64,000 nucleotides of DNA from NCBI GenBank assembly GCA_020630955.1, contig JAHDIE010000003.1, positions 98,336 through 162,335 of the forward strand, read 5' to 3'. Position 1 is the stretch's first letter. Every line of letters begins with the position of its first letter. Positions 31,896 through 37,543 of this stretch are shown piece after piece. This DNA is from Saprospiraceae bacterium (GTDB taxonomy: Bacteria; Bacteroidota; Bacteroidia; Chitinophagales; Saprospiraceae). The notes under the pieces are model-generated. The model was not told the origin of the DNA, did not search any database, and was given only the letters and a program-made list of their open reading frames with translations. The translations under genes and the position numbers were made by a program.

Positions 31896-31920
31896 AAGGC
31901 TCTCTTTTGAGAGCCTTTTT
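31896..31920. terminator. Terminator after dnaK
   Basis: Stem AAGGCTCTC (31896-31904), TTTT loop, GAGAGCCTT (31909-31917), then a T run. The far end meets the stop of the convergent TerB-like gene, so it may serve both strands. Confidence 0.92.
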
Positions 31921-32267
31921 TAATTCCATTCTTCTAAGATCATGTGCTTAAGAAAATTATCCAATCCTTTTTCTAATTTGGAATAATCACCATCTGCCTC
32001 AAATTGAATCTTGAGCTCGTGAAATATTTTGTCAAGATCCTTTGCTGTTTTTATGTGTTCAGATTTATTCTTCATGATATAGTCTAATCTTTGATAATCA
32101 GACATCTTTTCAAACCGATTTATTACAGCATCTACAAGTAAACCGTCATATTTACTTTTGATCATGGCAATCTCTTTGATACTTAGCTCATAGTCAGCAT
32201 AGGATGCGTAGAGGAGCATAAATACCATAAATTCGTCCGAACTTCCTTTTGTGGCTGGATTTATCAT
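31920..32267 (-). CDS. TerB-like helical protein
   Basis: 115 residues, all-helical. EFMVFMLLYASYADYELSIKE resembles the metal-binding acidic helix pair of TerB/tellurite-resistance-like domains. No signal peptide. Role unknown; it probably acts in the cytoplasm. It is the last of three minus-strand genes following the degenerate helicase gene, with gaps of 54 and 48 bases. Confidence 0.6.
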   Translation of the reverse strand: MINPATKGSSDEFMVFMLLYASYADYELSIKEIAMIKSKYDGLLVDAVINRFEKMSDYQRLDYIMKNKSEHIKTAKDLDKIFHELKIQFEADGDYSKLEKGLDNFLKHMILEEWN

Positions 32268-32321: not shown

Positions 32322-32756
32322 TTATTGTAAAATATCTGCTAAATTGGGCATAAAATTAAATTCTTTGGTGTTGAAATCAAGTTTAGCAGCATAATGATTG
32401 ATGCCATTACTAATTATCAAATTTGGAATTTTTAAAGCTTGATTATAAAGGGATATTTGTTCAAAAACACTTGTATTCAATGGGATATTAAATGCTTTGA
32501 ATTCAAATAATGATACAGGTTTATGATCTTTAGAATAAACCAATAAATCAAATCTTCTTCTTTTATCAAAGACTATAAATTGCTTTTCTACAGATATTAA
32601 TTTTTTGGATACGTTATACTTCCTGAATAAAAGCTGAATCCAACACTGTCGTATGATCTCTTCAGGTTGAATTACTAAGTATTTTCTTCTAATTTCACAA
32701 AAGATTTTTTTCTCACTTTCTATGATCTGAAATTTCAAATACTCCTTCATAGACAT
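32322..32756 (-). CDS. HsdR N-terminal-like PD-(D/E)XK nuclease-fold protein
   Basis: 144 residues. Corresponds to the stand-alone domain annotated as type I restriction HsdR N-terminal in Bacteroidota: EIIRQCWIQLLF, then RRRFDLLVYS and VSLFEFKAFN, which supply the Asp and the Glu-x-Lys of a PD-(D/E)XK active site. No methylase or specificity subunit is near, so it is not a restriction system by itself. A frequent solo gene in this phylum; role unknown. It lies 48 bases downstream of the helicase-like gene. Confidence 0.75.
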   Translation of the reverse strand: MSMKEYLKFQIIESEKKIFCEIRRKYLVIQPEEIIRQCWIQLLFRKYNVSKKLISVEKQFIVFDKRRRFDLLVYSKDHKPVSLFEFKAFNIPLNTSVFEQISLYNQALKIPNLIISNGINHYAAKLDFNTKEFNFMPNLADILQ

Positions 32757-32804: not shown

Positions 32805-35132
32805 TTAGTGGATTTCCGAAACATAATTTTCAGTAGTATAATCAGCATCATTTTGTATTTTAGCTTTGACACTGTATTCAGCCAAAAGGGAGCTTATTAA
32901 ATCTTTACCAATCCAATAGTAATCCTTTGACCATATGTTTTTGAATTTGATATTGTTTCTTTTCATCAATTCGATGAATTCCAGTTGATCTATTTTGTCG
33001 GTTCTTTTAAGGTCAAACAATCCATCTTGAATGAGAAAGTTAATTTCTTTATTTTCTTGAACCAATATATCTTGTAGTATTTCATTTGGATTATCCCCCA
33101 GATTAACTTCCTTTAGGTCTGATATGATTCTTTCAAGAAGCCCATTTTTTGCTTGAGTCCAATACGATAAAAAGACGCCATTTTTATTTTGATAAACTTT
33201 ATGAGGTAAACCAAATTTGACAATCTCTTTACTGAAAATTCTTGCATTCTCTAAGACTTTAATTTCTTGCTTTGAAGGAAGATAATATCCTTCTGCAGTT
33301 AAGGTGAAATCTGTTTGTTTGTAAGCGTGATTGGAAATAGATTGAATTGCAATAAATTTCTTGCCAGGTGCAATCTTATTATTTCCAATGAGCTCGATGA
33401 TGTCGCCACCCTCTATTGCAATAATATAATCCCAGTTACTTAAAAGATTATCGTTGTTTACCAATCTTTTCTCCTCTATTAAAGTGATTGGGAAATAACT
33501 GGAGATAAGTTTACCCCAACTCGCCAAAGCAATCTCCACATTGATTCTATTGATTTGACCATGCAACATTTTCCGAAGTTCCGTTTGGGCATCTTCATAA
33601 GTTTTGTCCGCCCATATTTTTTGTTGTCTCCAATAATTTTGAATATAATCCAAACTTATAGTTTGCTCTTCGAGAGCATGTCCTAGGTATGATTCATAAT
33701 CAAATGCCTCAACAAAATGATGACTGAAATTTTTGTTGAGAATTTTCATTAAATACCATGATTCAAAAATATCACACCATTCTTCTGAATCTGTTTGAAT
33801 TAGCGGATTGATGATTTGTTGAAGTGCCTCAGAGTTTTCCTTGTCCGTATTTGCATCAATTGACCACATAACAAAATCATTATTATTGATTATGAAGTTT
33901 ATGGACTTTTGTATTTGGAATATGGTGTCATTTACATCTTGAATGATATCGTCATGATGTTTCTTGGTAATCTTAAATGATTGGATCAACCACTCTTTGG
34001 AGTTTATGCCAAAATACAGATTCTTGAGTTCTGAAACTTGAGCATCAATATTGAAAAGAATTGAATCTTCATCATTGTTTTTGTAAATAAAAATATCTTC
34101 TAATTGATTCTTTATGCCTGCAATATCAATTGATTGATAGTTTGACATATTCAAGGTGTTGATATTTGTATGCTCTTTAATTAAGCCTATTTGGGTCTTA
34201 ATGCTTTCTTCTGTGTCATGAATTTCTTTTTCTAGCGGATCTTTTTCGAATCCTAACAAACCAGTTTTGAGTGGATTTATTTTTTGTTTATTTTTTAAAT
34301 ATTTGATCAATGATTTTAATCGATATAATTCGTTACAAGCTTGTTTTACTTGATTAAAAACAATAGAAGAGTCGGCTTTTGCCATGGTTCTTTCCCGTTC
34401 TGCTAAGTCTTTTATATCAAGTTGAACTTCTTTAAGTTTGTCCATTAAAGTGTATAAATATTCTATACTTTGATCAAGCTCCTTTTCTTCATTAATGCCT
34501 TTATAAAAATTTGCCTTGAAAGGATCAAGTTCTTTTAAACTGGTATAATGGAGTCTGAAGTTGTTGACCTTATGCTGAAGGTCTTTTCTTAATTCCATTA
34601 GCTCATCTAATGACCATTTGAATTTTGATTCATCTACTTTTTGGTCTAAAATACTCGTCCACCCATCTCTATTCAGCATGGCCTTATAATCAACCAATGC
34701 CTGCCAGTGTAGATCTTCTATAACTTCTTTGTTCAATGAATCATAGGCATGAAGCAATGAACTTTTGTAATTATCAGTTAAAGATTGAGTATGTTTTAGA
34801 AAATTTAGGTCTATAGATTTTGCTTTATGATCTCTTAATATTCTTGCAAAATTGAGATCTCCAGCTTTCAGAATACCATTATTGTGACTTGTTATTAAGC
34901 AAAGATTTGAAAGTCCCAGATGATTTAAATCTTCTTTTATTAGTGATTGGCATTGGCTGTCATTGGTTACGACGGCTACTTTTTTCCCTTTCAATAGACC
35001 ATCTAATAGAAGGGATTGAAGTAATTCAAGACTTTGGGATTGTTTGTTGAAGCTAATGCTCGCTCTTGAATAATTGTTCAATTCCTTAAGCAAATTCTTA
35101 ACCTCTGGGTGTGAGATCCTTAATTCGTTCAT
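32805..35132 (-). CDS. Degenerate superfamily 1 helicase/nuclease-like protein
   Basis: 775 residues. The layout follows large SF1 helicases with a C-terminal Vsr/DUF559-like nuclease domain. LLLDGLLKGKKVAVVTND (about 41-58) matches the segment after motif I, but the preceding P-loop (about 26-36) has no GxGKS/T. NFLKHTQSLTDNY matches the usual region behind motif Ia. Later NWDYIIAIEGGD (566-577) sits where FDLVIFDEASQ (motif II) should be, without the DE. The second RecA domain appears absent, and only about 90 residues separate this from a nuclease-like tail ending NIKFKNIWSKDYYW. The middle is coiled-coil rich. Probably non-enzymatic. No intact relative in the window. Confidence 0.6.
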   Translation of the reverse strand: MNELRISHPEVKNLLKELNNYSRASISFNKQSQSLELLQSLLLDGLLKGKKVAVVTNDSQCQSLIKEDLNHLGLSNLCLITSHNNGILKAGDLNFARILRDHKAKSIDLNFLKHTQSLTDNYKSSLLHAYDSLNKEVIEDLHWQALVDYKAMLNRDGWTSILDQKVDESKFKWSLDELMELRKDLQHKVNNFRLHYTSLKELDPFKANFYKGINEEKELDQSIEYLYTLMDKLKEVQLDIKDLAERERTMAKADSSIVFNQVKQACNELYRLKSLIKYLKNKQKINPLKTGLLGFEKDPLEKEIHDTEESIKTQIGLIKEHTNINTLNMSNYQSIDIAGIKNQLEDIFIYKNNDEDSILFNIDAQVSELKNLYFGINSKEWLIQSFKITKKHHDDIIQDVNDTIFQIQKSINFIINNNDFVMWSIDANTDKENSEALQQIINPLIQTDSEEWCDIFESWYLMKILNKNFSHHFVEAFDYESYLGHALEEQTISLDYIQNYWRQQKIWADKTYEDAQTELRKMLHGQINRINVEIALASWGKLISSYFPITLIEEKRLVNNDNLLSNWDYIIAIEGGDIIELIGNNKIAPGKKFIAIQSISNHAYKQTDFTLTAEGYYLPSKQEIKVLENARIFSKEIVKFGLPHKVYQNKNGVFLSYWTQAKNGLLERIISDLKEVNLGDNPNEILQDILVQENKEINFLIQDGLFDLKRTDKIDQLEFIELMKRNNIKFKNIWSKDYYWIGKDLISSLLAEYSVKAKIQNDADYTTENYVSEIH

Positions 35133-35274: not shown

Positions 35275-35868
35275 TTATTTAACCATGCCTCCTGATACCT
35301 TTTCTCCATTTTTATAAATATATTCTAAGGTAATGTTTCCTTCGTCATCAAAATATTTTAAGGAACCATCTTGAACTCCATCTTTAAATTCGATCTGTTT
35401 CAATAATTTACCTTTCTGGTTATATTCTTCATAAGTTCCTTCAATTTTACCTTTGACATAAGGTGTAGACTTTTCTATTCTTCCAAATTTATAACTTGCA
35501 ACATGACCATCATAGATGCCTGCCTTGTATTCTGATTTGGCTTCAATCTGACCTCTATTATTAAATGTAAGCGTTGGACCATTAAGTTGACCATCGACCC
35601 AGGTGGTTAAGGTTTGGATTCTACCATTATCTTCATGAAAAGTCATCCAAGAACCATTCTTTTTTCCATTGACAGTATATCCTGATTCAACCAATCGACC
35701 ATCTCCAACAGTTTTATAAACATAGACAGCATTTGATCCCGCCATTTGTTCTTCGTTAAAACCTGCTAGGTTTGCATCAGTTGATGGAGTAGGGGCTACT
35801 GTCGCACTGCCACCTCCACCACATGAATAAAGTGCAACAATTGAAAAAATCAGTAAGAAATATCTCAT
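35275..35868 (-). CDS. YwqK/MORN-type repeat lipoprotein
   Basis: 197 residues. Lipoprotein signal ending VALYSC (Cys16) followed by a Gly/Ser/Thr/Pro-rich linker. From residue 60 it has six or so repeats of a beta-hairpin unit with a GxxxGxxxxY/F pattern (GKKNGSWMTFHED, GQLNGPTLTFNN, GIYDGHVASYKF, GKIEGTYEEYNQKG, GVQDGSLKYFDDEG). This is the YwqK/MORN-like family, often labelled toxin-antitoxin but without proof. Outer-membrane anchored. Own promoter and terminator. Confidence 0.85.
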   Translation of the reverse strand: MRYFLLIFSIVALYSCGGGGSATVAPTPSTDANLAGFNEEQMAGSNAVYVYKTVGDGRLVESGYTVNGKKNGSWMTFHEDNGRIQTLTTWVDGQLNGPTLTFNNRGQIEAKSEYKAGIYDGHVASYKFGRIEKSTPYVKGKIEGTYEEYNQKGKLLKQIEFKDGVQDGSLKYFDDEGNITLEYIYKNGEKVSGGMVK

Positions 35869-35926: not shown

Positions 35927-37543
35927 ATGTTAATGAAGAATAAAGAAATTGCGGCTAAATTTAATCTGCTCGCTAAGTTGATGGAATTGAATGGAGAGAA
36001 CCAATTTAAAACTCGATCATACAGCAGTGCTTATAACATATTGAGAAAATATCCGGAACCGTTGCAGAATTTGTCTAGTGATCAAATCGCAGAAATTCCA
36101 GGTGTTGGGAAGGCAATCCAAGAAAAAATAATGGAGTTAAAAAGCTCAGGGCAAATGTCTTTATTGCAAAAATATTTAGATGTTACACCTTCTGGCATTG
36201 TTGAAATGTTAATGATCAAAGGCTTAGGCCCTAAAAAAGTGGATAAACTTTGGAAGGAATTGGAAATTGAATCACCTGGCGAATTGCTCTACGCTTGTAA
36301 TGAAAATCGCTTGGTTGATCTTAAGGGTTTTGGCCAAAAAACACAGGCTTCAATAAAAGAGCAAATTGAATATCATTTAAGTTCTAGAGATAAATTTCAC
36401 TACGCTAGTTTAGAAAAATCTGCTCAAAGTCTTTTGCTTGAACTTCAAGAACAATTTCCTAATGAATTAATAGCTTTAACAGGAGAGATGGCGAGACGAT
36501 GTCAAATCGTAAGCCAGATAGAGATCCTGACCACAATAAATGAGCAAGTATTTGAGGCTTATCTAAATGAAGAAGGAGAGCATGAATACGAATCTTATCC
36601 AGTATTTTTTATAGAAACAGATCATGAAAGTTTTTATCAAATACTACTCGAAACAAGTAGTGATGAAAAATATTATGCGCACTTTCAATTTGAAGGGGTC
36701 GAAGGTGAAAGCGAGGAAGATATTTATGAAAATTTAGAAATAGATTTTCACCCAGCATTTCTTCGAGAAAAGGAAAATATTGATTGGTTACAAAGAAAAC
36801 CATTTGACGAAAGTCAAATTATCGAAAACAATGATATTCGAGGAGTTGTGCACAATCATAGCACCTACAGTGATGGCGTCAATACCTTAGAAGAAATGGC
36901 GAAGCAAACAGAATTACTTGGCTATGATTATTTGGTGATGACGGATCATTCAAAATCAGCTTTTTATGCAAATGGCTTGTCTGAAGATCGATTGCTTGAT
37001 CAAATAGAAGAAATTTCCGAATTAAACCAAAAATCGAACATCAGGATTTTTTCAGGAATAGAATCAGATATTCTTTATAATGGTGATCTCGATTATGAGG
37101 CAGAAATGTTAGAGAAACTTGATGTAGTGATTGCTTCTGTCCATTCCGTTCTAAAGATGGATGAAGAAAAAGCAACCACCAGATTGATTAAGGCTATAGA
37201 AAACCCATATACACGCATACTAGGTCATCCAACAGGTCGTTTATTGTTATCAAGAAAAGGGTATCCGGTGAATTTTGTGAAAGTAATAGATGCCTGCGCT
37301 GCTAATCAAGTTGTTATTGAGATGAATGCCAATCCATATAGATTGGATATGGACTGGAGGTATATTCAACATGCAATGGATAAAGGAGTAATGATAAGTA
37401 TAAACCCTGATGCTCATAGCATTGCAGGAATAGAAGATATTCATTATGGTGTCCTAGCAGCCAGTAAGGGTGGTTTGACCAAGGAAATGTGCCTCAATGC
37501 CCTGAGTTTAAAGGATTTTGAGGCATGGTTGTCCGAAAAATGA
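35927..37543 (+). CDS. polX: PolX-family protein with helix-hairpin-helix and PHP domains; polymerase site altered
   Basis: 538 residues from the ATG at 35927 (a second ATG at 35933). The N-terminal 8-kDa-like domain and three helix-hairpin-helix motifs (IPGVGKAI 57-64, IKGLGPKKV, LKGFGQKT) bind DNA. The polymerase palm should contain GS-RRG...GDIDIL, but here residues 186-201 read GEMARRCQIVSQIEIL, so the paired aspartates are missing. The C-terminal PHP domain keeps its metal ligands: HNHSTYSDG (309-317), MTDHS, GIESDIL, ASVHS, LGHPTGRLL and INPDAH. Likely a DNA-repair 3'-5' exonuclease or AP endonuclease without polymerase activity. Confidence 0.92.
   Translation: MLMKNKEIAAKFNLLAKLMELNGENQFKTRSYSSAYNILRKYPEPLQNLSSDQIAEIPGVGKAIQEKIMELKSSGQMSLLQKYLDVTPSGIVEMLMIKGLGPKKVDKLWKELEIESPGELLYACNENRLVDLKGFGQKTQASIKEQIEYHLSSRDKFHYASLEKSAQSLLLELQEQFPNELIALTGEMARRCQIVSQIEILTTINEQVFEAYLNEEGEHEYESYPVFFIETDHESFYQILLETSSDEKYYAHFQFEGVEGESEEDIYENLEIDFHPAFLREKENIDWLQRKPFDESQIIENNDIRGVVHNHSTYSDGVNTLEEMAKQTELLGYDYLVMTDHSKSAFYANGLSEDRLLDQIEEISELNQKSNIRIFSGIESDILYNGDLDYEAEMLEKLDVVIASVHSVLKMDEEKATTRLIKAIENPYTRILGHPTGRLLLSRKGYPVNFVKVIDACAANQVVIEMNANPYRLDMDWRYIQHAMDKGVMISINPDAHSIAGIEDIHYGVLAASKGGLTKEMCLNALSLKDFEAWLSEK

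Follow-up and report, generated by a model that had tools for sequence, protein, structure and literature searches.

XPF-ERCC1 combines a helicase-like body, in which the ATPase is degenerate, with a nuclease; XPF is an SF2 protein and has an active nuclease domain of its own. AddB and RecC both function alongside a helicase that is itself active. They contain inactivated SF1 helicase-like domains that have lost most or all motifs and serve as DNA scanners within a nuclease complex, and the helicase-like domain of AddB keeps two RecA folds (PMC4824097). Named pseudohelicases are Utp25, which is of helicase descent and keeps two RecA-like domains (PMC9539457), and PriA of Deinococcus radiodurans (PMC4504706). 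DUF4011 proteins, finally, can be core genes that border defence hotspots (PMC10250203).

Here, we compare a gene of a Saprospiraceae bacterium with these systems. It lies in the window, by which we mean the whole stretch of DNA analysed, 64,000 nucleotides. We consider it fairly probable (about 0.6) that the gene encodes a pseudohelicase derived from a DNA2/NAM7-like SF1 helicase, with a DUF4011 N-terminus and an MTES_1575-type C-terminus, and that the protein acts as an ATP-free partner subunit of an HsdR-type nuclease. A pseudohelicase is understood as a protein of helicase descent whose catalytic residues are lost and whose gene is held by selection; all of this is found here, and the non-ATPase state is predicted from the sequence. 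The relatives of the gene are either short forms, like the window protein, or long forms, one of which, from genome G035, is used for comparison. The features of the locus are the following.

32805..35132, minus strand: reduced SF1 helicase (pseudohelicase), 775 aa; intact frame, homology to long helicases, RecA fold.
35025..35057, minus strand: lost P-loop position, residues 26-36 (ISFNKQSQSLE), aligned by both hhalign and MAFFT with GISGTGKT in the long form from G035.
33498..34808, minus strand: helical insertion of RecA1, residues ~109-545, retained; aligned throughout with the long forms, helical in the model.
33402..33422, minus strand: lost motif II position, residues 571-577, IAIEGGD against IVDEAQA in the G035 long form, from sequence alignment.
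32838..33272, minus strand: C-terminal alpha/beta domain of MTES_1575 type, residues 621-765, with Q716 replacing the E/D of the long forms; from hhalign, residue counts and the model.
32322..32756, minus strand: stand-alone HsdR-type nuclease, 144 aa, PF13588 HSDR_N_2 (E 5.7e-26), the conserved next gene.
31920..32267, minus strand: small downstream gene, 115 aa, present at some loci only; without a match in Pfam.
35275..35868, minus strand: upstream MORN-repeat gene, PF07661, from Pfam and synteny.
35927..37543, plus strand: PolX-like gene with helix-hairpin-helix and PHP domains (HHH_8, HHH_5, PHP), anchor of the locus, from Pfam and synteny.

The 775-codon frame is intact at exactly 32805-35132, as the sequence-only reading had it, and runs on the minus strand, which that reading left unstated. 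It had also claimed that residues 26-36 hold no P-loop and that motif II is replaced by AIEGGD. Both claims hold: neither GxxxxGK[S/T] nor DEAx is present in the window protein. The segment LLLDGLLKGKKVAVVTND lies just after the P-loop position, NIKFKNIWSKDYYW starts at residue 727 and falls, when aligned, on the MTES_1575-type domain at the C-terminus of the long forms, and NFLKHTQSLTDNY is a helix within the insertion in the AlphaFold model and is not a known motif. The second RecA domain (RecA2, AAA_12) is gone. Between motif II and the tail there are ~45-120 residues, by the choice of the tail start, compared with ~310 in the G035 long form (motif II at 847, start of the MTES_1575 match at 1156), which is too little for RecA2; the sequence-only reading had put the distance at ~90 residues. 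The N-terminal DUF4011 region is absent as well: residue 8 of the window protein is the first to be aligned, opposite position 261 in the profile of the long forms.

Single-sequence searches of Pfam, PADLOC, NCBIfam and PDB with the window protein gave nothing significant, so that its similarity to helicases is visible only via its relatives. With the same protein, no relative was confirmed in a scan of genome contigs, no second copy was found in its own genome at E 1 or better, and none of the phage collection matched at E 1e-3. Relatives were detected in 8 out of 60 genomes: the window's own, all five others of its genus and two more of Saprospiraceae. The match in G035 falls in a protein of 1270 aa that carries GISGTGKT and IIVDEAQ and whose tail is weakly MTES_1575-like. 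Profile searches of 398 Saprospiraceae genomes then gave relatives in 214 (first profile, E 1e-3) and 271 (wider profile, E 1e-6), and the open frames among the matches listed, fragments aside, are mostly ~620-835 or ~1000-1360 codons long.

The long forms (n=14) have 1026-1342 aa, and most of them carry both P-loop and motif II. Two of them, L080 and L083, match DUF4011 and AAA_12 above the Pfam cut-off; AAA_11 is above the cut-off in L080 and just below it in L083, and for MTES_1575 it is the reverse. MTES_1575 is matched by all seven long forms scanned, in two above the cut-off. The other five (L010, L073, L077, L084, L085) match neither DUF4011 nor AAA_12, so these have diverged too. All four long forms scanned with PADLOC match PDC-S37 (L080 E 7.6e-124, L083 7.9e-116, L073 1e-32, L010 2.3e-25), and L080 and L083 also match Hhe, strongly, and MkoA.

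When the profiles of short and long forms are aligned with hhalign, the probability is 100 (E 7e-47) over positions 257-865 of the long-form profile, i.e. RecA1 and its helical insertion. The near relatives of the window protein alone give 99.8 (E 1.8e-29), and the C-terminal part aligns with positions 1162-1246 at a probability of 66 (E 5.5e-5). From these ranges it follows that the N-terminal region and RecA2 are missing and that the remainder is homologous, less surely so in its C-terminal part. As judged from the profiles, the short form is a reduced SF1 helicase whose RecA1 body and insertion are homologous to those of the long forms, and the helicase likeness first read from the single sequence is real. 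In PDB, the long-form profile finds SMUBP-2, DNA2 and NAM7/UPF1; the short-form profile finds no helicase there, only other proteins at E 0.0075 or worse. The C-terminal tail had been described as a Vsr/DUF559-like nuclease. It is probably homologous to the tail of the long forms, and the name MTES_1575-type fits it better, and the nuclease fold was not confirmed by structure, the best match among solved structures reaching Z 4.9, which is not clear. A match to MUS81-EME1 (Z 3.4 and below) was given no weight.

Searching the 54 genomes with short forms with the long-form profile, we found a separate 1359-codon relative in G110 and more distant giants of 1795 and 1934 codons in G250 and G252; many weak matches in frames of ~550-940 codons were taken for other SF1 helicases. 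Among the matches listed from 298 genomes of the order, the frames of other families mostly exceed 1100 codons, and some have fewer than 1000. Among the titles listed in one open-access library, none dealt with this protein family, and PDC-S37 brought up no paper there.

The AlphaFold model of the window protein has a mean pLDDT of 72.7 and a pTM of 0.44. The fold comparison called for by the sequence-only reading is led by helicase RecA domains. In the VIA structural comparison the best 50 rows have Z-scores from 12.5 down to 9.1, although a Z under ~13 can be unspecific for mostly helical models such as this one. Wherever a title names a molecule it is a helicase, a translocase or XPF; some titles name only complexes (spliceosome, pre-ribosome). 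The alignments cover ~140-210 residues, in most rows between model residues 1 and ~607. With Foldseek alone on the whole model, no helicase is among the best rows; the first one, eIF4A, comes at rank 36 (E 0.84). That list is headed by dynein and further coiled-coil proteins, which was put down to the long helical insertion.

To describe the loss of motifs we used 51 complete short forms (621-818 aa, 21 genera) and the 14 long forms. These loci were picked from the matches listed, by open-frame length and spread over genera, and are not a random sample. Three further short forms (L013, L014, L016), truncated where their contigs end, are not among the 51, and incomplete assemblies limit statements of absence. 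A P-loop is found in 2 out of 51 short forms (L057 and L061, both of genus g99) compared with 13 out of 14 long forms, the exception L079 having GEDALGKA in its place. In the other 49 short forms the pattern occurs nowhere in the protein, and in the two exceptions it stands at its ancestral position; an intact P-loop elsewhere would have spoken against the first interpretation. Motif II is kept in a single short form, L103, with DEAH at or beside the proper place. The DES-type strings of L063, L086 (residue 194), L093 and L105 lie away from that place, and three long forms (L077, L084, L085) have altered motif II residues. The expected conservation of the loss among homologues holds across 21 genera.

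In a tree of 63 rows (49 short, 14 long) all short forms fall on one side of a branch with an SH-aLRT of 100. L103 is the deepest short branch (93). L057 and L061 occupy a nested position, and their sister is L058 (GQKMSGRS). L069 and L071 were omitted as long branches; they fall inside the short branch in a 45-row tree, which agrees that the short forms are a single branch. The 63-row tree requires a minimum of two P-loop changes, which would be one loss and one regain; if no regain is allowed, separate losses are needed in L103, L058 and others. Motif II needs one change, after the split of L103, when all long forms are counted as having it. MAFFT over all 65 rows was gapped at the P-loop columns, and this site was read from other alignments and pattern counts. 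As far as these data show, the domain shedding happened once, and the P-loop was probably lost several times. The order of the losses is provisional, because the deep branches are long and poorly resolved. The two omitted proteins, from genus g3 (L069:5165-7294 and L071:5166-7331, 709 and 721 aa), have very long branches and no adjacent nuclease, and they are possibly the result of an independent reduction.

The claim that the gene is selected and not decayed is borne out. In seven pairs of short forms pN is 0.17-0.38 against a saturated pS of 0.74-0.86, and three pairs of long forms show the same pattern. What is conserved differs between the two forms. In the 14 long forms the P-loop has 3.18 bits per column and motif II 3.41, above a mean of 2.27, whereas in 27 short forms the corresponding places have 1.33 and 1.39 bits, against a mean of 1.49. 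The most conserved part of the short forms is the C-terminal domain (1.80 bits). By these values, the constraint on the short forms has shifted away from the ATP site and onto the C-terminal domain. At the site of Q716 the residue is E/D in 13 out of 14 long forms and Q in 49 out of 51 short forms, the other two (L096, L105) having H. A nearby D is present in 14/14 long and 36/51 short forms. Our guess is that Q716 may disable a nuclease site; the first catalytic D of the family consensus seems to be already missing in most long forms.

Several genes accompany the short forms. A MORN gene lies within 1.5 kb upstream in 31 out of 51 loci, in 28 on the same strand, and a complete PolX gene is near 20 out of 51. 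MORN is also near two of the 14 long forms, as the direct neighbour 449 bp upstream in L076 and one frame away in L073. This suggests that short and long forms share one ancestral place, but two of 14 do not prove it. The long form L082, considered for sharing the PolX place, was dropped since PolX is not among its near neighbours. At L179:5904-6929 a gap of 15 bp, in which there is no helicase, separates the MORN gene from the nuclease gene, while PolX, the epimerase-like, the kbl-like and the small gene follow the usual order; here the pseudohelicase has apparently been lost completely.

The best clue to function, in our judgement, is the HsdR-type nuclease gene 48 bp downstream of the pseudohelicase, which the sequence-only reading had overlooked. 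This gene is directly downstream of the short form in 48 out of 51 loci by script, and in 49 with L096, where the overlap is larger owing to a longer open frame of the nuclease; these loci cover 20 of the 21 genera. Among 48 gaps, 27 are zero or negative, 34 are within 20 bp and seven are exactly -4. In the cultured Portibacter lacus YM8-076 (locus L221) 1 bp separates the two genes. None of the 14 long-form loci has an adjacent nuclease. In L103, the deepest short branch with its DEAH kept, the nuclease gene is already 11 bp downstream. The exceptions are the two loci of genus g3, where the nuclease is not adjacent; G216 carries a nuclease gene at another site, and the search of G298 yielded none. 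In 20 aligned nucleases the residues E57, D70, E85-x-K87, Q100 and Y104 are all invariant, and we take the D, ExK and QxxxY residues to be the catalytic set.

The nuclease gene is present in 31 out of 32 genomes tested, including four from other families of the order. Five of them (G011, G012, G014, G028, G030) have no helicase relative by the short-form profile, with the two best candidates scored. Around 20 nuclease copies from long-form, helicase-less and other-family genomes and one g3 genome, the profile found no pseudohelicase relative among the printed neighbours. In five of these copies an epimerase-like gene follows, and in four of the five then a kbl-like gene; in L137 Pfam identifies the pair as Epimerase and Aminotran_1_2. 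In the named-genome collection, 15 of the best 80 nuclease loci have an adjacent short form and 65 have no helicase relative near, some of the 65 ending close upstream. These 65 loci, together with L179, indicate that the nuclease does not need the pseudohelicase. The nuclease can do without the pseudohelicase; the latter is rarely found without the nuclease. The loci L136-L155 show the nuclease gene as widespread in the order, mostly single and with varying neighbours. Among the titles listed in one open-access library, none dealt with a stand-alone nuclease gene of the HsdR type in these bacteria.

A mirror-tree test over 20 loci found no specific coevolution of pseudohelicase and nuclease: given PolX, the partial correlation is 0.18, below the 0.41 of the MORN protein. 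The adjacency could reflect co-transcription alone, and the pseudohelicase might act by itself or in another pathway, for instance as a nucleic-acid-binding scaffold, with the nuclease merely a neighbour in the operon. Products of one operon need not touch, and the short form of genus g3 without a nuclease neighbour would fit. We regard this as unlikely, though worth serious consideration, for the same neighbour is kept in 49 out of 51 loci and 20 genera although the protein itself has diverged greatly, the frames often touch or overlap, and the MORN gene is near in only 31.

A role of the pseudohelicase in inhibiting the nuclease, or in guarding it as an antitoxin would, agrees with the tight coupling of the genes and the intact catalytic residues of the nuclease. 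Such a guard seems unnecessary, because the nuclease stands alone elsewhere, both in the five genomes without a detected helicase relative and beside no such relative in L179, and we find the idea improbable. A role as an anti-phage defence factor, which the long relatives may have, we rate slightly lower again. The long forms do match PDC-S37, and two of them Hhe, but the window protein has neither a PADLOC match nor a relative in the phage collection, and the complete PolX near 20 short forms marks an inherited chromosomal setting, not a mobile island. The sequence-only reading had suggested a derivative of a DNA-processing or defence enzyme; the helicase derivative stands, while "defence" is unsupported for the short form and is only the name of a model matched by its long relatives. 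A decaying relic without function is very improbable: the protein diverges very fast (mean tree distance 4.0, compared with 1.4 for PolX, 20 loci) and is wholly absent in L179, but the synonymous excess is strong, Q716 is newly fixed and conservation is higher in the C-terminal domain than elsewhere in the protein, the open frames themselves counting little here as loci were chosen by frame length.

For the partner subunit of the nuclease we propose the following course, in which we infer the complex, its contact with nucleic acid and the direction of control. An ancestor within the family would have shed the N-terminal region and RecA2, and this reduced ancestor would have come to adjoin, directly upstream, an HsdR-type nuclease gene that had long existed. 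The residues of the ATP-binding site and of motif II then decayed, at different times among the lineages, while the RecA1 body, the helical insertion and above all the C-terminal domain remained under selection. The present protein would act without ATP as the partner subunit of the nuclease: what was once the helicase body would hold or recognise nucleic acid, and the C-terminal domain would dock the nuclease. By analogy it would be a non-ATPase accessory subunit of a nuclease, like RecC or AddB. The more detailed history, a helicase of a putative defence type rebuilt as an ATP-independent subunit of a once stand-alone nuclease, with linkage and shedding early, stepwise loss of the ATP site and intermediates still alive, is put forward tentatively, as somewhat short of an even chance. 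Living intermediates are DEAH without a P-loop in L103 (genus g112) and a P-loop without motif II in genus g99.

With helicases of the PDC-S37 type (DUF4011/AAA_11/AAA_12/MTES_1575) the short form shares RecA1, the helical insertion of ~440 residues and, less surely, the C-terminal domain. It differs in lacking the DUF4011 region, P-loop, motif II and RecA2 and in having the nuclease gene downstream. The motif-less SF1 helicase-like domain is common to RecC, AddB and the short form, the latter being tied to its putative partner nuclease by gene adjacency. Unlike AddB, the short form has no RecA2, and unlike in both systems, no active helicase gene adjoins the pseudohelicase within the window. 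XPF-ERCC1 is among the VIA matches (Z 11.1 and 10.3); in contrast to XPF, the candidate active nuclease here is encoded by a gene of its own. Conserved proteins of helicase descent with lost motif function are likewise seen in Utp25 and D. radiodurans PriA, but these belong to other helicase families and are not known to have a partner nuclease.

Taken together with its relatives, the gene, unrecognised by Pfam, NCBIfam and PADLOC, stands for a pseudohelicase that occurs family-wide, has a nuclease gene as its fixed neighbour and still survives in intermediate forms. If our reading is true, the two proteins would be a new nuclease, a minimal and independent counterpart of RecC, AddB and XPF, and a rare readable series in which a motor becomes a scaffold. 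Of RecC, AddB and XPF it is mainly the end state that is known. In the present case a single family holds long active-looking, reduced and intermediate forms, which makes it possible to read and test in what order the genes became linked, domains and motifs were lost and new residues were fixed. The pseudohelicase also offers a candidate partner for a stand-alone nuclease gene that is common in this order, and interest would grow if binding between the two were shown.

Some minor observations concern the surrounding genes. The small downstream gene encodes 105-138 aa in many loci, and the window copy, judged by eye, may be TerB-like. In the same-genus genome G001, dnaK consists of two consecutive frames of 440 and 241 aa (L011:4344-6410), which is a frameshift or an assembly error. 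In genome G003 a single 616-aa frame (L014:6700-8550) spans PanB-like and MltG-like sequences; in the window these are separate genes.
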